This document shows, piece after piece, positions 1,793 to 29,040 of a stretch of 34,628 nt of DNA. How positions within the stretch are numbered: position 1 is the stretch's first letter; every line of letters begins with the position of its first letter. This DNA comes from a virus, in IMG/VR virus record IMGVR_UViG_3300028025_001731, positions 1 through 34,628 of that record. The stretch is one strand, 5' to 3'. The translations under genes and the position numbers were made by a program. Under the pieces are notes generated by a model. It saw only the letters and a list, made by a program, of their open reading frames with translations. It was not told where the DNA came from and made no database searches.

Positions 1793-3672
1793 TGCCGCCT
1801 AAAACAAGAGAGCAAATTATTGAAGAGGCGCTTCAGAGAAAGCAGAGATTCGTTGGCCCTGTGGGAATGGTCCCAGAAGGCCCGATGACAAGGGAAGGTA
1901 TTATACAGGCGGCTCTTGCAAGGAAGATTGCTCCGCAGCCTTCTCAGTCACCCACAGCGCCTTCTCGTCCAGTCATGGGAGCTGCTGAAGCGACAGGGGC
2001 TGTCTTAAGCGGGGCATTAGCAGAGCCTGTTTCTGGCCTTGTTGGTATGGCGTCTATGGTCCCGTATGGCCTTGGGATCACTGAAACTCCTCCCGGAGAT
2101 GTTGTAAGGAACGTGCAAAGCGCAATGACATATCAGCCGCGCACTGCTACCGGACAGCAATATATGCAAAATGTCGGGCAGGCATTGCAGCCAGTGGCGG
2201 GCGCGTTGCAGTCAGCGGAGTCTTCACTTGGGGAGTATGGCTACAACTTAGGCGGTCCTGTTGGTGGTGCAATTGGTCAAACTCTTCCAACAGCAGCAAT
2301 GGAATTGCTTGGGATTGGCGCAGTAAGAAAGGCTAGAAGCATAGCAAACGCTCCCATTCCGTCTTCAGCAGGAGAGGTGATTGAGGCTGGCAGAAGGGCT
2401 GGGGTGCCGGTAACAACAACCGATGTGCTTCCTCCTGAAACTTTTGCCTCAAAATGGGCGCAATCCATATATGAAAAAATCCCCATAATAGGCGGAGCTG
2501 GCGCAAGGCAATCACAGCAAAGACTTAGGCAAGAAGCTGTCAGCGCACTTGCTGATGAGTATGGCTTGGAGCTTGATAGCATTGGTGACCTCTCTGCTCA
2601 GATAGTAAATTCTATCAGCCAAAAAAGTGCTGCAACATTAAGCAGGGCGGCTTCGCAGAGAATGCGGGCTACTCAGGTTCTTGATCCGCTGGGTGAAGTT
2701 CCCTTAACAAATACATCTCAGGCAATTGATTCTCTTTTGGCACAACAGGCTTCGCTTGGCGCTAGAGCAGATCAGGGTCTTGTTTCGACCCTAAACAATA
2801 TCAAGTCATCTCTTGCTATCGGGCCTATGGCGCAAGGGATGCAGGCTCCTAGAAACTTCTCTGGCGTGAAGGATATACGAACCACTGTCATTGAAGACCT
2901 AAAGGCAATCAACAGAAGCGAAGACCCTAGATCGGCAGCGCAGTTGCAACAAGTAAAGTCTGCAATTGATAAAGACATGGTGTCGTTTGCGCGGCAAAAC
3001 GACCAAGTTGCGGCAAGAGATTGGCTTGAGTCTAATCGCGTCTTCGCAAGAGAGCTTGAGGCTACCAGAAACACTGAGCTTCGCAGAGCGTTTAATTCTG
3101 GGAACACGACTCCAGAGGTAATCCTTCCTATTCTAAAGGGAGGCAAAAGAAGCGAGCTTGAAAGATTGAACAACGCACTTTTGCCTTCTGGAAGGCAGGC
3201 TGCTCGCTCTGCAATTTTGTATGACGCACTGGCTGAAAGCGGATATTTCTCAGACATGGCAAATGCTAACCCAGACAGGTTTGCTACTGCCTTGGGTCGC
3301 CAGAATAGAATGCAGGCTGTAGACATTTTCTTTGAAGGTGCGGATAAGGATGCGCTGTCTGGATTCACTCGCCTGTTAAATGCAACTCGACGGGCGCAAC
3401 AAGCAAGCGTCAATCCGCCAACAGGACAGCAGCTAGCTCCTTTCGCAATTGGTGGCGCATCAGTAGCAGAACCGCTAATAACGGCGATTTCGGTTGGCAC
3501 CGTTTCAGGTATTGGGCGAATTTATGAAAGTGCCGGAATGCGAAATTTTCTGTTAAGATTGAACAATACAAAAGCTGGCTCTCCGCAAGAAATGGCGCTA
3601 ATTGAGGCAACAATTCCTGCTTTGACAGCATCACTGCAAAGTCAGTCTAGGCAGTCTGAGGAGAATAGATAA
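1792..3672 (+). CDS. DNA transfer/ejection protein, P22 gp16-like by position, 626 aa
   Basis: This is the last ejection-type gene before the fibre genes, the position and size of P22 gp16 (609 aa). ATG 1792 overlaps the upstream stop as TGATG; an in-frame TTG one codon earlier is less likely. The N-terminus has two similar short helices (TREQIIEEALQRK and TREGIIQAALARK, about 24 residues apart). Two Gly/Ala-rich hydrophobic stretches follow, at about residues 60-100 and 140-180, which could insert in a membrane. A long soluble helical middle comes next, and a shorter hydrophobic stretch lies near residues 550-580. P22-family ejection proteins cross or line the cell envelope during genome delivery. 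The sequence alone does not prove the family. Confidence 0.65.
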   Translation: MPPKTREQIIEEALQRKQRFVGPVGMVPEGPMTREGIIQAALARKIAPQPSQSPTAPSRPVMGAAEATGAVLSGALAEPVSGLVGMASMVPYGLGITETPPGDVVRNVQSAMTYQPRTATGQQYMQNVGQALQPVAGALQSAESSLGEYGYNLGGPVGGAIGQTLPTAAMELLGIGAVRKARSIANAPIPSSAGEVIEAGRRAGVPVTTTDVLPPETFASKWAQSIYEKIPIIGGAGARQSQQRLRQEAVSALADEYGLELDSIGDLSAQIVNSISQKSAATLSRAASQRMRATQVLDPLGEVPLTNTSQAIDSLLAQQASLGARADQGLVSTLNNIKSSLAIGPMAQGMQAPRNFSGVKDIRTTVIEDLKAINRSEDPRSAAQLQQVKSAIDKDMVSFARQNDQVAARDWLESNRVFARELEATRNTELRRAFNSGNTTPEVILPILKGGKRSELERLNNALLPSGRQAARSAILYDALAESGYFSDMANANPDRFATALGRQNRMQAVDIFFEGADKDALSGFTRLLNATRRAQQASVNPPTGQQLAPFAIGGASVAEPLITAISVGTVSGIGRIYESAGMRNFLLRLNNTKAGSPQEMALIEATIPALTASLQSQSRQSEENR

Positions 3673-5279
3673 TGGCAAGGTACGGCGATCTAGGCACACA
3701 ATACTTTGACGATGCGGGCGATCCCCTAGTAAGTGGAAGAATCTACTTCTACGAGTCTGGCACGACTACCCCGAAGACAACCTACGCTGACGTTGATCTT
3801 TCTATTCCCAATACCAACCCAGTTATTTTGACTGCTGCTGGTAGACAGCCGAACATCTTCTTCGATGGTGTTGCGAAAGCAATCCTAGCTACGTCTACAG
3901 GGGCGCAGATACTTGTCCGTGACCCTGTTGGCGACACTGCTAATAGTTTCGGTAATCCTTGGATAGCCTCAAAGAGATACACCTCCAACGATGTTGTGCA
4001 GGGTTCAGACGGTCAATACTACGTCTCCCTGATTAACGGGAACGTGAACAACAATCCTGTGACCACAACTGGCAACTGGACCTTCCTGTACTCTGTTGAA
4101 TGGAACGCGGGAACGACTTATAAACTTGGCTCGGTAGTCACGTATCAAACCATTGTTTACCAGTCGCTTCAAAATACGAACCTGAACCAGAATCCGTCTA
4201 CGATAACGGCCTACTGGGTGCCGATCCAATTGGTCTGGAGTTCAACGGCGACCTACGCAATCAATGCTAACGTAGTCGGGACTGACGGCGTTCTGTATAC
4301 ATCTCTTCAAAATGCCAACACTGGAAACATTCCAGCCAGCTCACCTTCTTGGTGGGTGGGAACAAGTGCTGCTGCGGCTGCTAGTGCGAGTGCTGCTGCA
4401 ACTTCTGCTAGTAATGCATCTACATCTGCAACCAACGCTGCGGCTTCTGCAAGCACTGCTACGACTCAGGCAGGTTTGGCATCCGCAAGCGCGGCTACAG
4501 CAACAACTCAGGCCGGTTTAGCGTCTACAAGCGCCTCAAACTCAGCTACAAGCGCGTCCAACTCGGCATCAAGCGCAAGCTCTGCCTCTACCTCGGCAAG
4601 CAATGCTGCGGCTAGTTATGACTTGTTTGACGACAGATACCTTGGGGCCAAGGCCAGTGATCCTTCTGTAGACAATGACGGCAATCCTCTTGTTACTGGT
4701 GCAATGTACTTCAACACCTCTAGCAATGTGACAAGGATTTACAACGGTGCGGCGTGGCAGGATTCAGCAGCGATTGCGACCACTATCAACCTGGCTACTC
4801 AGGTAACGGGTACTCTTGCTGTTGCCAACGGCGGCACAGGCGTGACTACTTCCACCGGCACTGGCGACACTGTTCGCGCCACAAGCCCCACCCTTGTAAC
4901 GCCATTACTGGGCACTCCTACTTCAGGCAACCTGTCCAATACAACAGCAGACGGCACAAACTCCGTTGGCTTTAAGAGCGTCCCAGCAGTCGGAACTAAG
5001 ACCGCCAGCTACACACTAGCGGTAGGCGATGTCGGTAAATACGTTCAGCTAGGCGCAAGCGGTGCGATAGTTATCCCAGACGCAACCTTTTCTGAAGGTA
5101 ACGCGATTACGCTGTTCAACAACACCGGCTCCACTGCCACCATCACTTGCAGCATCACCACAGCCTACATCGCAGGCACTTTCACTGACAAGGCGACTAT
5201 GACCCTTGCTGCTGCGGGTGTGGCGACTATCCTGTTTATATCCGGTACAACGTGTGTCGTTGCGGGGAATGTGACCTAA
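3672..5279 (+). CDS. Tail fibre/spike with head-binding-like N-terminus, 535 aa
   Basis: Residues 1-90 resemble the N-terminal virion-attachment domain of short-tailed phage spikes (LGTQYFDDAGDPLVSGRIYFY, then TTPKTTYAD and a run of hydrophobic beta strands). Residues about 95-230 hold three carbohydrate-binding-like repeats of the W.....Y..N.VV..DG..Y.SL.N.N type. Residues 233-318 are almost only Ala, Ser, Thr and Asn, with two copies of ATTQAGLAS, a typical fibre stalk. A small domain with GNPLVTGAMYFNTSSN and a beta-rich tip follow. The product would sit on the tail and bind the host surface. TAATG overlaps join it to its neighbours on both sides. No depolymerase site is visible. Confidence 0.75.
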   Translation: MARYGDLGTQYFDDAGDPLVSGRIYFYESGTTTPKTTYADVDLSIPNTNPVILTAAGRQPNIFFDGVAKAILATSTGAQILVRDPVGDTANSFGNPWIASKRYTSNDVVQGSDGQYYVSLINGNVNNNPVTTTGNWTFLYSVEWNAGTTYKLGSVVTYQTIVYQSLQNTNLNQNPSTITAYWVPIQLVWSSTATYAINANVVGTDGVLYTSLQNANTGNIPASSPSWWVGTSAAAAASASAAATSASNASTSATNAAASASTATTQAGLASASAATATTQAGLASTSASNSATSASNSASSASSASTSASNAAASYDLFDDRYLGAKASDPSVDNDGNPLVTGAMYFNTSSNVTRIYNGAAWQDSAAIATTINLATQVTGTLAVANGGTGVTTSTGTGDTVRATSPTLVTPLLGTPTSGNLSNTTADGTNSVGFKSVPAVGTKTASYTLAVGDVGKYVQLGASGAIVIPDATFSEGNAITLFNNTGSTATITCSITTAYIAGTFTDKATMTLAAAGVATILFISGTTCVVAGNVT

Positions 5280-8725: not shown

Positions 8726-9232
8726 ATGTTAAGTCTAGTATCAAGTTTGCTGGGATTCGCATCTGGTGGACTGCCTAAAGTCCTCGACTTCTTCCAAGAC
8801 CGCACAGACAAGAAGCATGAACTTGCTTTGATGGCAGCGCAGCAGGAGCGTGAGATTGCCTTAGCTAAAGAGGGCTTTATTGCCCAGGCCAAGGTCGAGG
8901 AGATTCGGACAGCGCAGGTGGCTCTTCAGACCGAACAGGTCGCCATGCAGACGCAGGCCCAAGAAAAGGTTGCTATGTACAAGCATGACATGAAGATCGG
9001 TGAGGGCGCATCTCAGTGGGTCATTAATCTCAGAAGCAGCGTTAGACCGATGGTCACGTACCTCTTTGTTGGTCTGTTGATTGTCGTGGACATTGCTGGT
9101 ATTTGGTATGCCTACTCAACAGGCGTAGCATTTGCTGACGCGATGGACATGGTGTTCTCAGACGATGAGATGGCTATCCTTGCGGCGATCATTAGTTTCT
9201 GGTTTGGCAGTCAGGCTTTCAACAAGAAATGA
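8726..9232 (+). CDS. 3TM-type phage/GTA holin, 168 aa
   Basis: The protein resembles the three-helix holin family first described in gene transfer agents. An amphipathic N-terminus (SSLLGFASGGLPKVLDFF) is followed by DRTDKKHEL and a long Gln/Glu/Ala coiled coil (residues about 28-90). The conserved LRSSVRPMVTYLF begins the membrane part, with helices at about 106-130 and 146-163, ending in FWFGSQAFNKK. It would gather in the inner membrane and open it at the set time. It has a GAGG ribosome site, and its stop overlaps the lysozyme start (ATGA), which strongly supports a lysis role. It is the best holin candidate of the four membrane proteins here. Confidence 0.75.
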   Translation: MLSLVSSLLGFASGGLPKVLDFFQDRTDKKHELALMAAQQEREIALAKEGFIAQAKVEEIRTAQVALQTEQVAMQTQAQEKVAMYKHDMKIGEGASQWVINLRSSVRPMVTYLFVGLLIVVDIAGIWYAYSTGVAFADAMDMVFSDDEMAILAAIISFWFGSQAFNKK

Positions 9233-9708
9233 CAATCTCTGAAGCTGGCATCCAGCTAATCAAAAGCTTTGAGGGGTGTCACAGCAGCCCCTATAGATGC
9301 CCTGCTGCGCTTTGGACGATAGGGTATGGTCATGTACTGTACCCAGACCAAGCGCGTCTCAAAACGCCTGAAAGAGCCTCTTATGCACTTAAACCAGAAC
9401 ACAATCGGGTGTGGGATGCTGACGAAATTGATGCGTTACTTGCGGCGGATTTACAGAGATTTGAGGCTGGGGTTTTACGACTATGTCCTCCTTGCGTTGA
9501 TAGTCAGCCTCAGTTTGACGCAATTGTCAGCCTTTCTTTTAACATTGGTCTAGGCAACCTCCAAGCCAGCACCCTACGGATGAAGTACTCTCGCGGCGAG
9601 ATCGAGTCAGCAGCAGACGAGTTTCTCAAGTGGAATAAAGCTGGCGGGAAAATCCTTGCTGGACTAACCCGCCGTCGAGCTGCTGAAAGGGCGCTATTCC
9701 TTTCTTAG
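9229..9708 (+). CDS. Endolysin, GH24 lysozyme, 159 aa
   Basis: This is a T4/P22-type muramidase that cuts the glycan strands of peptidoglycan. The catalytic pattern E-8aa-C-5aa-T is intact: Glu15 in SFEGC, Cys24, Thr30 in WTIGYGH. The C-terminal helices carry FDAIVSLSFNIGLGN and LTRRRAAERALFL, as usual for the family. There is no signal peptide, so release depends on a holin. A long insertion (about residues 38-66) follows the TIGYGH motif. The gene is the last on the plus strand before the convergent regulator at 9719, with only ten bases between their stops and no clear terminator there. Confidence 0.93.
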   Translation: MTISEAGIQLIKSFEGCHSSPYRCPAALWTIGYGHVLYPDQARLKTPERASYALKPEHNRVWDADEIDALLAADLQRFEAGVLRLCPPCVDSQPQFDAIVSLSFNIGLGNLQASTLRMKYSRGEIESAADEFLKWNKAGGKILAGLTRRRAAERALFLS

Positions 9709-9718
9709 CCTGTTATTT

Positions 9719-10309
9719 TTAACGCAGGTTCTGCAAGCCACGTGATGGGTGGAGCATTAGCCTGAGTGCCCTCTTCTGTATTTGCCGTATCCTTTCTGGG
9801 CTTCGCTCCATAATTTCTGCTGTTTGCGCTAACGTGTGGCTTTCATCAGAGGCAGTATCCACACCAAAACGAAGTTTTAGTACATTTTGCTGGCTCTTGG
9901 TAAGGGTTGAGGCGGCAACGGCCAGCGCGTTGTGCTCAATCTCCTCCTGTTCTTGTTCAAGAAGCAGATCAAGCGGGTCTTGGCTTCCAAGCCTAGCATA
10001 CATGGGAACAAGGTCTTCGGCGTTAGCCTCCATGACCACATTGTTTACCGGCAGGCTCTCTTGCAGGTGTTGCTCTGGAAAAATATCGCAGGGAGTGCAT
10101 TGAAAGAAATCGCACAGCTTCTTTACGTCTAAAGCCATTTCTCCTCTCGACGTATATGCTGGTGTTTTTAAATTCAGAATCTCTCCAATTCCAGATTGAC
10201 CAACCCCACTTGCCCTTGATAGTTCTGCCGCAGTGGTGATGTTGTATTGCCTCATCATCGTCAACAGGTAGTTGTTCTTTATTTTAATGTGTAGCGCGTA
10301 GTCTTTCAT
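9719..10309 (-). CDS. Transcription factor: XRE helix-turn-helix fused to sigma-70 region 4, 196 aa
   Basis: Residues 10-80 form an XRE/Cro-type domain with a helix-turn-helix at about 27-46 (AAELSRASGVGQSGIGEIL) and the typical LCDFFQCTPCDIFP end. Residues 136-189 match sigma-70 region 4: LTKSQQNVLKLRFG, then TLAQTAEIMERS and ERIRQIQKRALRLMLHPSR, close to the end of RpoD. Acidic residues link them (QDPLDLLLEQEQEE). There are no region 2 or 3 domains, so it cannot act as a complete sigma factor. It could bind the RNA polymerase flap and a phage promoter, replacing host region 4. It is a lone minus-strand gene behind the late operon. Six 10-bp repeats lie just upstream of its start, suggesting self-control. 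The ribosome site is AGAGAG. Confidence 0.85.
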   Translation of the reverse strand: MKDYALHIKIKNNYLLTMMRQYNITTAAELSRASGVGQSGIGEILNLKTPAYTSRGEMALDVKKLCDFFQCTPCDIFPEQHLQESLPVNNVVMEANAEDLVPMYARLGSQDPLDLLLEQEQEEIEHNALAVAASTLTKSQQNVLKLRFGVDTASDESHTLAQTAEIMERSPERIRQIQKRALRLMLHPSRGLQNLR

Positions 10310-10320
10310 AATTTCTCTCT

Positions 10321-10380
10321 TAGCGTGCCTTAGCGTGGCTTAGCGTGACTTAGCGTGGCTTAGCGTGACTTAGCGTGGCT
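10321..10380. repeat. Six tandem 10-bp repeats (TAGCGTGRCT)
   Basis: Six exact-length decamers lie end to end. Copy 1 is TAGCGTGCCT, and copies 2-6 alternate TAGCGTGGCT and TAGCGTGACT, so a 20-bp higher period is also present. The unit is about one helical turn, placing all copies on one face of DNA. The array begins 11 bp upstream of the start codon of the XRE-sigma4 gene and ends just past its upstream terminator. Possible roles are an operator array for that protein, or replication iterons. It is not a CRISPR, as there are no spacers. Confidence 0.95.
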
Positions 10381-10392
10381 TCTTGTTGTTGT

Positions 10393-10417
10393 AAAAAAAG
10401 CCCCAGTGAAGGGGCTT
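10393..10417 (-). terminator. Rho-independent terminator of the recombination operon
   Basis: Read on the minus strand it is AAGCCCC, loop TTCACT, GGGGCTT, then a run of T. The seven-pair GC-rich stem and U-tract are a textbook intrinsic terminator. It lies downstream of the 71-aa gene (ends at 10477) and upstream of the decamer array. It therefore separates the nine-gene operon from the sigma-4 regulator, which must then have its own promoter between about 10320 and 10395. Confidence 0.9.
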
Positions 10418-10476: not shown

Positions 10477-10692
10477 TTACGTCTGGATATCATCACCGAA
10501 ATTCTTTTCCTTCTCAATCTTTCTTCTGATTACCGACATTGGTTGCGCGTTTTGGGCGTGGACTCCTCTCGGTATTTCCTTGATCTGCCCGCCTTTCTTC
10601 AGAAACGCATCAATCTTTGCCTGCACCCAATCGTGTGTGTATGGCGAAGTGGATGGCTTGGTGTCAGGGTACAGCTTGTCAATTGTTGGCAT
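10477..10692 (-). CDS. Hypothetical protein, 71 aa
   Basis: This is a small basic protein with no family I can name. The middle (WVQAKIDAFLKKGGQIKEIP) looks like a helix followed by a turn. The C-terminus is charged (VIRRKIEKEKNFGDD). ATG at 10692 overlaps the upstream stop as TGATG; a GTG one codon earlier is also possible. It is the last gene of the minus-strand operon, followed by the terminator at 10393-10417. A small DNA-binding or host-modifying role is possible but not shown. Confidence 0.65.
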   Translation of the reverse strand: MPTIDKLYPDTKPSTSPYTHDWVQAKIDAFLKKGGQIKEIPRGVHAQNAQPMSVIRRKIEKEKNFGDDIQT

Positions 10693-11084
10693 CACTCACC
10701 TCTGTAGAATATGTGGTTGTCTATCACAGTCGTTCTTTCCAGCTCCGCTGCCCACCACGGCTGTACTCTCGTCGCGTGGTAGTGTGTCGCCCCGCCGGTC
10801 GGGTCTGGGATAAAGCCCCCAGCTGTGAGCATCGTGACCATTATGGCCTTGGCATACGCCCAGTCATCGTGTACGTCCTCGCGCAATCCATCGCACATGA
10901 AGCTGAACTGGCACTGATTCCGTCGATGCTCGTCTTCGTGCGTGACACCACAGGCGGTGTCTGGGTAGCCGTGGGTGGCGGTGCGGTGGTAGATCACCCA
11001 TGCCACAGCGGCTTGTCCTTCCAACGGTTCGCCACGGGCCTCAAAGTAGATTGCCGTGGCTACACAGAACAAGGCAGAGATCAC
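10692..11084 (-). CDS. SleB/CwlJ-type cell wall hydrolase, 130 aa
   Basis: The protein matches the Hydrolase_2 (SleB) family of peptidoglycan hydrolases: AIYFEARGEPLEGQAAVAWV with the catalytic Glu at residue 15, then CQFSFMCDG, GATHYHA and the final HIFYRGE. The start is placed at GTG 11084, where it overlaps the upstream stop as GTGA and has GGGAG six bases before. An in-frame TTG at 11153 would add 23 unmatched residues. The first residues are hydrophobic (ISALFCVATA), but no convincing export signal is seen. It lies in the recombination operon, far from the GH24 lysozyme, so this phage has two wall-cutting enzymes under different control. Confidence 0.85.
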   Translation of the reverse strand: MISALFCVATAIYFEARGEPLEGQAAVAWVIYHRTATHGYPDTACGVTHEDEHRRNQCQFSFMCDGLREDVHDDWAYAKAIMVTMLTAGGFIPDPTGGATHYHATRVQPWWAAELERTTVIDNHIFYRGE

Positions 11085-11275
11085 TTCCTTCTCCCAATCA
11101 GTCGCACTCGCAACTGAATCGCTGTTGTTAGAATCTCGTTTCTCCAATGGCAACAGGCTCTGAGTGCTGCGCCACGGTTCCCTTTTGTCTTGTTTGCTTC
11201 AGCTAAACGCTCACGGGCTATTGCGTACTGCGCCCGCGAGACATTAAGCCACCAGTGAAGCGTTTTTATTTTCAT
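11081..11275 (-). CDS. Hypothetical basic protein, 64 aa
   Basis: A short, Arg-rich, probably helical protein (WWLNVSRAQYAIARERL near the start and LRVRLIGRRK at the end). I do not recognise it. Its reality is supported by tight packing: its ATG overlaps the SSB stop by ATGA, and its stop overlaps the hydrolase start by GTGA. It lies between SSB and the hydrolase in the recombination operon. The basic character would suit nucleic acid binding, but that is only a guess. Confidence 0.6.
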   Translation of the reverse strand: MKIKTLHWWLNVSRAQYAIARERLAEANKTKGNRGAALRACCHWRNEILTTAIQLRVRLIGRRK

Positions 11276-16292: not shown

Positions 16293-16450
16293 CACCTGAA
16301 TGGATTGAGCTTTATCACTCGGTGAATGAATTGCTCCTACAGCTTGGAGAAGAGGGGTCTATTACCAAGAAGGATGAGGTGGTTGATCGAGTAATGTACG
16401 CGCTCTTTGAGATCGACGGCGGAGTACACAACAAGAGGATGGGCCAGTGA
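16289..16450 (+). CDS. Small hypothetical protein, 53 aa
   Basis: Its ATG overlaps the ninB stop (ATGA) and its stop overlaps the following GTG start (GTGA), so it is an intact link in the operon. A ribosome site GGGAGG lies upstream. The product is acidic and helical (WIELYHSVNELLLQLGEEG, KKDEVVDRVMYALFEIDGG). No family recognised. Confidence 0.65.
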   Translation: MTPEWIELYHSVNELLLQLGEEGSITKKDEVVDRVMYALFEIDGGVHNKRMGQ

Positions 16451-17517
16451 GAAAAGACAATAATATGGCGACTACTTTGAGGGTGTCTGTAGCTGAAGAT
16501 GATATAACAAAAGAAATATGCAGGGCGTTTGATTACAAATTCGATGGCACAACTGAAACAAAAATTAGTCACTTTGATATTAAAAATGATTTTGGAATTG
16601 GTTTAATTGTTGGGCCTTCGGGTAGTGGGAAATCCACACTGTTAAAAAAATTTGGAAATGAATCACAACACGAATGGGATTCTGAAAAGTGCATCGCCTC
16701 TCAGTTTGAGTCTGCCGAGGAGGCCCAGAAAAAATTGGCGGCAGTTGGGCTAAACAGCATTCCCGCATGGTTGAGGCCGTATCACGCATTATCAACTGGC
16801 GAAAAGTACCGAGCAGACCTAGCCATGCAATTAAAGTCTGGCGCGGTTGTTGATGAATTTACTAGCGTCATTGATAGGCAGGTGGCAATGTCGTGCGCCA
16901 ATGCGGTTAGCCGATATGCCAAGCAGTGCGTCTTAAAGAATGTTGTTTTTGCATCGTGCCATTACGACATAATAGATTGGCTACAACCTGATTGGGTATA
17001 CGATACTTTGACAAAAAACCTGTCATATCGGGGGACAGCTAGGCGGCAACAAATTGAGCTGGAGGTATTACCTTGTGGGGTCGAGTCGTGGTCAATCTTC
17101 AGCAAACATCATTATCTCACAGAGGACATCAATAAAAGTGCAATGCATTGGCTCTGCGCGTGGGGATCAAATGTTGTTGGGTTTGCTTCCGCAATAGCCT
17201 ATCCATCTGGCACAGTTAAAAACGCCTACAGAGGACATAGGACGGTTATATTGCCCGACTATCAAGGGCTGGGAATAGGCGTCAGATTAAGTGACGCGAT
17301 TGCTGAGATACATCACCAAAAGGGTTTTAGATATTTCAGCAAGACAGCACATCCAAGGATGGGCGAATACCGAAACAACTCTCCGCTATGGAGGCCAACA
17401 AGTAAAAACATGATAGAGCGCAACGATTCATCAAGTGAAAGCGTTAAATGGGTTTCGCGGAAAGTATTTTCTTACTCACATGAATATGTGGGTGTCAGTT
17501 GTGCGCTGAGTAGCTAA
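16447..17517 (+). CDS. ABC-type ATPase fused to a GNAT domain, 356 aa
   Basis: The N-terminal half is an ABC-type ATPase: Walker A GPSGSGKST at 56-64, signature-like LSTGE at 115-119, Walker B with D136-E137 and a switch His172 in ASCHYD. It has no membrane segments and no transporter partner, so it is not a transporter. The C-terminal half is a GNAT fold, with HRTVILPDYQGLGIGVRLSD as the acyl-CoA-binding motif at about 260-280 and the end motif TAHPRMGEYRNNSPLW. GTG 16447 overlaps the upstream stop (GTGA) with GAGGA before it; ATG 16465 is an alternative. The gene is more AT-rich than its neighbours. Possible targets are DNA bases (Mu Mom is a GNAT) or host proteins. Function unproven. Confidence 0.8.
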   Translation: MRKDNNMATTLRVSVAEDDITKEICRAFDYKFDGTTETKISHFDIKNDFGIGLIVGPSGSGKSTLLKKFGNESQHEWDSEKCIASQFESAEEAQKKLAAVGLNSIPAWLRPYHALSTGEKYRADLAMQLKSGAVVDEFTSVIDRQVAMSCANAVSRYAKQCVLKNVVFASCHYDIIDWLQPDWVYDTLTKNLSYRGTARRQQIELEVLPCGVESWSIFSKHHYLTEDINKSAMHWLCAWGSNVVGFASAIAYPSGTVKNAYRGHRTVILPDYQGLGIGVRLSDAIAEIHHQKGFRYFSKTAHPRMGEYRNNSPLWRPTSKNMIERNDSSSESVKWVSRKVFSYSHEYVGVSCALSS

Positions 17518-19500: not shown

Positions 19501-19546
19501 TTTGTATCCCCTTTTTTTGGCCCGCTTTATTGCTGGCATGGGAGAT

Positions 19547-19574
19547 ATAATACAACAACTAGTTGTATACGCAA
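19547..19574 (-). promoter_or_regulatory. Promoter with operator for the minus-strand operon at 19500
   Basis: On the minus strand: -35 TTGCGT (19569-19574), 16-bp spacer, -10 TATTAT (19547-19552). The spacer holds an inverted repeat, ATACAAC at 19550-19556 and GTTGTAT at 19562-19568, with the palindrome ACAACTAGTTGT nested in it. The TACAAC half-site is shared with the operator at 13269-13308, so both may answer to the Cro-like protein. Confidence 0.6.
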
Positions 19575-19590
19575 GAGGGTAGAGCAATCT

Positions 19591-19619
19591 TTTTTAAAAT
19601 ATTTTCAATGGTGTATAAT
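19591..19619 (+). promoter_or_regulatory. Candidate late promoter
   Basis: A perfect -10 (TATAAT, 19614-19619) lies 31 bp upstream of the first packaging-region gene. The -35 at the right distance (TTTTTA, 19591-19596) is poor, and the upstream DNA is very AT-rich. A promoter with a good -10 and weak -35 often needs an activator; the XRE-sigma4 protein is the obvious candidate. It would drive the long late operon. Confidence 0.5.
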
Positions 19620-19650
19620 CCCTGTAAATCAATTGCTCTCAGGAGCCACT

Positions 19651-28064: not shown

Positions 28065-28694
28065 ATGCCAAAAGCTAAAGACCCGCGATTAGAAAGAGTC
28101 GGCGTTGAAGGCTTCAACAAGTACAAGGTTTACCTTCATCGACGCGCTAGCGATGAGTCAGTATTTTATGTTGGTAAGGGTAATCGGTGGAGAGAAAACT
28201 CTAAGGCCGGTCGCAACAAACACTGGCATCACACGGTAGCTAAGCACGGCTTGATTGTAGAAATCGTAGCAAGAGACCTTACAAACGAGGAGGCTTGCAA
28301 TATGGAGAGGAAGCTTATCTCGAATTACGGGATTGATAACCTCGTAAATTACACCTTGGGCGGAGAAGGATCGGAAGGTTACAAGCACACCCAAGAAGCA
28401 ATCCAGAAGATGCAGGGGCGTGTTCTTTCGGAGAGCCATAAGCAGAAGCTTTCCCAGTCTAAATTAAAAAAGCCATCAATGTTCTGGTCTGGGAAAACCC
28501 GCCCAGAGGAGACTGTCCTAAAAATGTCAGAGGCGCTCTCTAAGCCCTCGCGAAAAATGGTTAAAGACATGCTTTTAATGGGGTTTTCTAGAAAAGAAAT
28601 CCAAGAAAAGACTGCTGAGTCGTTTGCGTATATTCGACAAATAGCCAGTTATTTAAGGGGGAAAGGATATGAAATCCCAAGACTCCAAAATTAG
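28065..28694 (+). CDS. GIY-YIG homing endonuclease, 209 aa
   Basis: Residues 20-110 form a GIY-YIG domain: YKVYLHRR, then VFYVGKGNRWRENS, a catalytic Glu in NMERKLISNYG and NYTLGGEGSEGYKHT. NUMOD3-like repeats follow (ESHKQKLSQSKLKKPSMFW, and similar SGKTRPEETVLKMSEALSK). The C-terminus has a helix-turn-helix-like part (MGFSRKEIQEKTAESFAYIR). Such genes cut a cognate site in a related genome and copy themselves in. It stands free, between coat and DUF6321-like genes, and overlaps the latter by 26 bp. Confidence 0.9.
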   Translation: MPKAKDPRLERVGVEGFNKYKVYLHRRASDESVFYVGKGNRWRENSKAGRNKHWHHTVAKHGLIVEIVARDLTNEEACNMERKLISNYGIDNLVNYTLGGEGSEGYKHTQEAIQKMQGRVLSESHKQKLSQSKLKKPSMFWSGKTRPEETVLKMSEALSKPSRKMVKDMLLMGFSRKEIQEKTAESFAYIRQIASYLRGKGYEIPRLQN

Positions 28695-29040
28695 CGGTGC
28701 GCTTAAGAGGGCGGGGGTATCTGCGGTCAACAAGCCGAAACGCACTCCGAACCATCCCACGAAATCCCATGTTGTTGTCGCTAAAGTAGGCGACCAGATC
28801 AAGACGATCCGCTTCGGCCAGCAAGGTGTCAGCGGTAGTCCAAAGCGTGAGGGCGAGTCTGAAGCAGACCGCAAGCGCAGAGCTTCATTCATGGCAAGAC
28901 ATCGAGAGAACATCAACAAGGGCAAAATGTCAGCGGCTTGGTGGAGCTCGACCACCAAATGGGGCATAATACTCGCATTCACAAATGGTGCAATGGCGGT
29001 ATATTATGCTTCCGGTTCAGGACAGTCGGGTTTCATTTAA
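28669..29040 (+). CDS. DUF6321-like phage protein with an extended C-terminus, 123 aa
   Basis: The body matches a short basic phage protein (DUF6321-like): NHPTKSHVVVAKVGDQIKTI, RFGQQGVSGSP, RKRRASFMARHRENINKGKM and SAAWWSSTTKW. Relatives I know end at that KW. Here about 25 hydrophobic and Gly/Ser residues follow (GIILAFTNGAMAVYYASG), overlapping the next gene. The tail looks like read-through into foreign DNA at the edge of the HNH gene, where the old stop was lost. Role unknown; the GGGGA ribosome site is good. Confidence 0.72.
   Translation: MKSQDSKISGALKRAGVSAVNKPKRTPNHPTKSHVVVAKVGDQIKTIRFGQQGVSGSPKREGESEADRKRRASFMARHRENINKGKMSAAWWSSTTKWGIILAFTNGAMAVYYASGSGQSGFI

Follow-up and report, generated by a model that had tools for sequence, protein, structure and literature searches.

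The viral gene described here encodes a predicted 196-residue protein that joins an XRE (Cro/C1-type) DNA-binding domain to an RpoD-type sigma-70 region 4, with regions 2 and 3 absent. The domain identities are secure, and the gene probably gives the phage a dispensable means of directing host RNA polymerase, not an essential late-gene switch. It lies in a 34,628-nucleotide IMG/VR virus record (IMGVR_UViG_3300028025_001731), which was analysed at full length and is referred to below as the window. Because the two ends of the window overlap by 125 bp, we take the genome to be circular, at about 34.5 kb. Its genes describe a podovirus of P22-like design, with a terminase, a P22-type portal, Sak/RecE recombination, NinB/NinG and an O-like protein. 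Rfam and tRNA scans of the window were empty, and a search for a T7-type RNA polymerase, run without a positive control, gave no match. At 16447-17517 the window also encodes a 356-aa protein with ABC-type ATPase and GNAT acetyltransferase domains (phrog_11143, unknown function).

Table 1. Features of the window around the fusion gene and in the late leader
Feature	Coordinates	Strand	Details
Endolysin (phage lysozyme), convergent neighbour	9229..9708	+	
XRE-sigma4 fusion gene, 196 aa	9719..10309	-	ATG to TAA; Pfam, PDB sequence search, hhalign
Sigma-70 region 4, residues 134-190	9740..9910	-	P171/E172 align with E. coli R584/E585
Linker, residues 77-117, window sequence FPEQHLQESLPVNNVVMEANAEDLVPMYARLGSQDPLDLLL	9959..10081	-	Conserved; model confidence low
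Cro/C1-type (HTH_26) domain, residues 13-77	10079..10273	-	Pfam, predicted model; recognition-helix residues 37, 40 and 43 hypervariable in the family
Six 10-bp repeats (- strand ACGCTAAGYC), between terminator and start codon	10319..10381	.	Directly upstream of Shine-Dalgarno-like AGAGAG
Intrinsic-terminator-like hairpin and T run at the end of the leftward early operon	10398..10417	-	Position kept in G024 and L008
Neighbour gene, 72 aa, SutA RNA polymerase-binding domain (RBD)	10477..10695	-	PF20661, 35.3 bits, cut-off 29.3
Cell wall hydrolase	10692..11153	-	PF07486; many other XRE-sigma4 genes likewise have a relative close by
TGTATAAT in the late (terminase) operon leader	19606..19622	+	Poor -35; also in G024

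Domain identity and distribution of the family

The preliminary description of this DNA had proposed a fusion of an XRE domain to sigma-70 region 4, and Pfam, a PDB sequence search, profile-profile alignment and a predicted model all bear this out. At the C-terminus, Sigma70_r4 (PF04545) matched residues 134-183 with 43.8 bits (E = 1.8e-11, cut-off 24.1), and the best PDB sequence matches were to region 4 of RpoD/SigA (E = 4e-9). Aligned profile to profile with hhalign, residues 124-195 matched RpoD region 4 with a probability of 99.4 (E = 5.6e-22); upstream of residue 124 hhalign gave no alignment to RpoD. NCBIfam sigma models matched in their C-terminal part only. Region 4 was thus the sole sigma match by Pfam and hhalign, region 2 (-10 recognition and melting) is absent, and the protein is not a complete sigma-70 factor, in keeping with the earlier statement that regions 2 and 3 are missing. 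The modelled region 4 has the expected fold and superimposed on domain 4 of S. aureus sigma-A (4g6d) with a TM score of 0.81 of the target, an rmsd of 2.2 Å and 40% identity.

The N-terminal assignment held by a different route from the one first suggested. HTH_3 scored 12.8 bits, under its cut-off, whereas the Cro/C1 model HTH_26 (PF13443) matched residues 17-77 narrowly, with 23.8 bits (E = 5.2e-5, cut-off 22). The modelled N-terminal part has a five-helix XRE layout (pLDDT 82), and its nearest structures in Foldseek include the 434 and P22 c2 repressors and HipB, all with weak E values.

Several further resemblances were followed. Whole-chain Foldseek matches to sigma factors (rmsd 14-21 Å) have no meaning outside region 4. 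The best viral Foldseek matches were A0A516LCZ9 and A0A0F7L6V6 ('Sigma-70 region 3 domain protein', 200 aa), conceivably short relatives. MzaA of the MZA defence system was rejected, with only the region 4 part matched (PADLOC 20.8 bits; NCBIfam 37.5 bits against a cut-off of 800). For the linker, sigma region 3.2 was considered on the basis of an EDL/DP pattern similar by eye and of some NCBIfam alignments that begin near residue 90-105, and was discarded, as the hhalign alignment starts at 124. Nor does the linker appear to be a module common to other proteins: a linker-only scan gave known carriers only.

Relatives of the protein, 39-100% identical, are encoded by about 25 uncultured-phage contigs in IMG/VR whose genomes represent at least four dissimilar backgrounds. 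The carriers sort into about four groups. One is the window type (L007, L008, G001) and another consists of 58-kb phages (G002, G010-G012); in the other two (G003/G004/G008 and G005-G007/G009) the gene lies near family A DNA polymerase genes. The family N-terminus, MKDYxLxIKIKNNYL, is nearly invariant. In the three other members tested with Pfam, Sigma70_r4 matched above its cut-off (E = 3e-10 to 7e-19), and HTH_26 gave 26.9 bits in L018, 23.0 bits in L010 and, under the cut-off of 22, 18.0 bits in L021. Since relatives keep the architecture and purifying selection is visible in the window-type genes, the reading frame is not a chance ORF.

Among 50,697 isolate-phage records the XRE-sigma4 architecture was not found; matches were confined to region 4 and, where annotated, lay mostly in sigma factor genes. 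The plasmids searched did not contain it either, and the two plasmid matches inspected were full-length sigma factors. We did not count these isolate-phage and plasmid matches as relatives, because their alignments are limited to region 4 and reach at most residues 84-195, or because they belong to sigma factors. A scan of genome contigs returned RpoD genes only, among the matches listed. Similar XRE-region 4 proteins may occur in proteobacterial prophages. Within these searches, the fusion proteins make up an unnamed family, here found only in uncultured phages.

Two observations concern the edges of the gene and of its parts. At their first bases, the contigs L001 and L002 both break at the codon for residue 81, where the conserved linker begins; such a break would arise if the sampled strains had the linker DNA in common and assembly stopped there. 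In L009/G001 the XRE-sigma4 gene is bracketed by two direct copies of a 13-bp repeat, GAGTAACGAGCAC (2044-2056 and 2651-2663). The copies span the stop of XRE-sigma4 and the stop of the preceding gene, 0 of 200 shuffles reached the repeat, and it suggests cassette-like movement.

An accessory gene in an early setting

The closest comparison is a sister genome, G024, which is circular (121-bp end repeat) and whose terminase and portal are 99% and 100% identical to those of the window. It carries the late module and lacks both the fusion gene and the repeat array. At the empty site the endolysin stop directly adjoins the terminator, which is followed by a SutA-like gene; since homologous DNA resumes at window position 10380, the gene and the array together constitute the extra DNA of the window. 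In G026, too, no XRE-sigma4 gene lies between the recombination genes and the endolysin, and a family profile found no match in 27 terminase relatives or in 10 polymerase relatives, several of these records being fragments. Judged from these genomes, the fusion gene and array are an accessory cassette, present or absent among closely related phages. The ORFs specific to G024 include no obvious replacement for region 4. At 28619-28807, G024 encodes a 62-aa dksA/traR-like zinc finger (21.3 bits, below the cut-off of 24.9).

This distribution bears directly on the role first proposed for the protein, a dedicated switch that would turn RNA polymerase towards phage late promoters with weak -35 boxes. 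The promoter part of that proposal has a counterpart in the window, where the leader containing TGTATAAT looks -35-poor, and a Q-like antiterminator was not found among the annotated window genes. However, the leader is shared with G024, which lacks the protein: positions 19501-19650 are identical at 140 of 150 sites, and the last ~80 bp, including TGTATAAT, are exact. As late module and leader are both present in G024 although the gene is not, late transcription in this type of phage seems not to need the fusion protein. Conservation together with the late module, as for a late-transcription activator, was likewise missing from the terminase relatives searched, and in G026 the endolysin directly adjoins the recombination operon. 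A late-promoter role is therefore unlikely on comparative grounds, and we give the dedicated switch very little credence.

The surroundings of the gene suggest the early phase, as XRE-sigma4 genes sit among early recombination or DNA-replication genes. The gene had also been described as a single unit with its own control region. This applies to the window, where a leftward terminator and the repeat array precede it, but not to the family, as in L007 and G002 the gene overlaps the preceding co-directional gene. Terminator-like patterns in the region are not more numerous than in shuffles, and the conserved position is the stronger argument for the one listed in Table 1. The exact array unit was found nowhere else in the window, so that no second target is evident in the genome, and it is absent from 11 relatives without the fusion gene. 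The L007 array has five copies, sits at the 3' end of the gene and overlaps its stop codon (~4316-4366), L008 has a single copy upstream, and many relatives have no array and carry the gene within an operon. The window array is a possible operator for autoregulation, although its placement varies among relatives. RNA structure in the leader bearing the array did not stand out (z -0.4). In the early operon of L007, a CsrA-family protein (PF02599, E = 7e-14) is encoded at 3371-3559, two genes upstream of the fusion gene.

A second potential RNA polymerase ligand is encoded nearby. Of the 24 carrier records, 16 contain a SutA-RBD gene above cut-off, in every case co-directional and within ~2.1 kb of the fusion gene, compared with 2 of 29 and 0 of 10 comparison records lacking the fusion gene. 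Fisher's test on 16/24 versus 2/37 (27 + 10 virus records, two isolate phages left out) gives p ~4e-7, a value that overstates the support, because the carriers are related in about four groups and the counts are not independent. The two genes are linked and not co-dependent, since the SutA-like gene is also present in G024, where the fusion is missing. SutA pinches the RNA polymerase β protrusion and wedges the lobe open through an interface comprising F74, L75, G78, G79, V81 and I84 (PMC9300723). By eye, the neighbour protein matches Pseudomonas SutA at F74, L75, G78 and G79 and is hydrophobic at 81 and 84; it differs in lacking the long acidic N-terminus. With such a protein adjoining and, as detailed below, core-binding positions mostly kept, the route to RNA polymerase envisaged for the fusion protein appears plausible.

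Conserved and diversifying positions

Residue counts and entropy were taken from 13 non-redundant family proteins. The positions whose core-binding roles in sigma region 4 have been reported (PMC4943231) are mostly kept: R562 in 12 of 13, and F563 (as F/Y), I565 (as V/L), G577 (as G/A) and L598 (as L/M) in all 13, with E555 in only 6. As the same residues help to build the fold, their conservation is no more than suggestive. Among the base contacts, Q589 is kept in 13/13 and R586 is invariant. The most variable positions of region 4 include R584 (kept in 1/13) and E585 (6/13), the residues that read base pairs -31 and -33 (PMC2613000). The window protein, with proline at the first of these two, lacks the R584 and E585 pair of consensus -35 reading. 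We read region 4 as probably still fitting RNA polymerase and re-specified at DNA. A similar pattern is seen in the XRE domain, in which the scaffold is conserved and recognition-helix positions 37, 40 and 43 are among the most variable (entropy 2.4-3.1 bits).

Comparison of four window-type genes (six pairs) places the linker at the other extreme, with pN of 0.00-0.03 at pS of 0.11-0.41 (0.29-0.41 in 5 of 6 pairs); pN reaches 0.12-0.33 in the XRE HTH and 0.18-0.37 in the region 4 HTH. In these alignments, both predicted DNA-binding helices diversify at base-reading positions, and scaffold and linker are held. Between L007 and L008, DNA identity is 99% over residues 1-24, 57-64% over residues 25-76 and 97% over residues 77-117; the XRE segment, between a near-identical start and linker, has thus been exchanged as a block.

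Exchange of this kind, as in immunity systems, would also suit a two-headed repressor or immunity protein, in which region 4 is only a second DNA-binding HTH and promoters, perhaps those of co-infecting relatives, are repressed. Variation of specificity residues in both HTHs and the accessory state of the cassette are in line with this idea. However, core-binding residues are retained, linkage to SutA is repeated, and a classical CI repressor was not found among the annotated window genes. The tyrosine integrase profile PF00589 had no match in 20 records (15 carriers, several of the records fragments), with 14 of 14 controls matched, so pairing with a tyrosine integrase, as for a lysogeny repressor, was not seen in these records. 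The carriers are virulent-looking phages. We consider such a repressor rather unlikely.

Region 4 might instead act as a decoy on the β-flap, displacing sigma70 region 4 so that the -35 box goes unread; -35-dependent host promoters would be shut down, -35-poor phage promoters would stay active, and the XRE domain would only autoregulate. This would account for the loss of R584 in 12 of 13 proteins alongside mostly conserved core-binding positions, for the poor -35 of the late leader, for an array present only at the protein's own gene, and for an accessory status that fits a host-shut-off gene. It offers no reason, though, why base-reading positions next to invariant R586 and Q589 should have diversified instead of decaying, or why the linker is so conserved, and many relatives have the gene in an operon without an array. 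The decoy is a doubtful explanation.

The reading we tentatively prefer is an early, accessory factor that would dock on host RNA polymerase through region 4 and be addressed by its XRE domain. Region 4 would sit on the β-flap but leave a consensus -35 unread, with a phage-specific DNA address provided by the XRE domain. The polymerase would be recruited to, or held at, a few promoters of phage or host, probably including the gene's own promoter via the array. The protein would thereby modulate transcription during infection, with late gene expression independent of it. Weighing towards this accessory factor are the identity of region 4, the kept core positions, XRE variation, the frozen linker, SutA linkage, the early-gene setting and the lack of tyrosine integrase matches in the records searched; weighing against it are a linker with no known match, the SutA gene kept in G024 and the unique array unit. 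A more elaborate version, to which we assign a low probability, would make the family dual-specificity adaptors of RNA polymerase. Two interchangeable DNA-reading heads, an XRE domain for an upstream site and a region 4 re-specified to read a non-consensus -35, would be carried on a fixed RNA polymerase-binding linker and work with SutA-type partners. If true, each phage would have its own promoter code on the host enzyme, with no need for a complete sigma factor.

Relation to known systems

Residues 124-195 have the same fold and sequence as RpoD/SigA region 4, with several core-contact residues in common; the fusion protein differs in lacking regions 1-3, in the replacement of R584 and often E585, and in the attached XRE domain. 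With HTH_26/Cro-C1 phage regulators of the 434 and P22 c2 type it shares the N-terminal domain layout, but in place of a CI peptidase or dimerisation domain its C-terminus is region 4. A region 4 on a separate polypeptide is likewise found in SigO/RsoA, the split sigma factor of Bacillus subtilis. The XRE domain is extra in the fusion protein, for which, unlike SigO/RsoA, no region-2 partner was identified. Other phages take over RNA polymerase via sigma region 4 with small anti-sigma proteins.

The working principle envisaged for the fusion protein would resemble that of T4 gp33/gp55 and AsiA/MotA, in which the β-flap is occupied or region 4 remodelled to redirect host RNA polymerase. In the T4 late system a phage protein on the β-flap redirects the host enzyme, and gp33 is structurally unrelated to region 4 (PMC7892883). 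T4 needs gp33 and gp55 for its late genes, whereas the XRE-sigma4 gene is accessory. The known phage takeovers considered here thus use unrelated folds (gp33) or small anti-sigma proteins, not a free region 4. If a region 4 is joined to a repressor-type domain, both DNA-reading helices diversify and a SutA-type protein is encoded close by, a new promoter specificity could be made in little space, and the arrangement would show how far a sigma factor can be split into parts.
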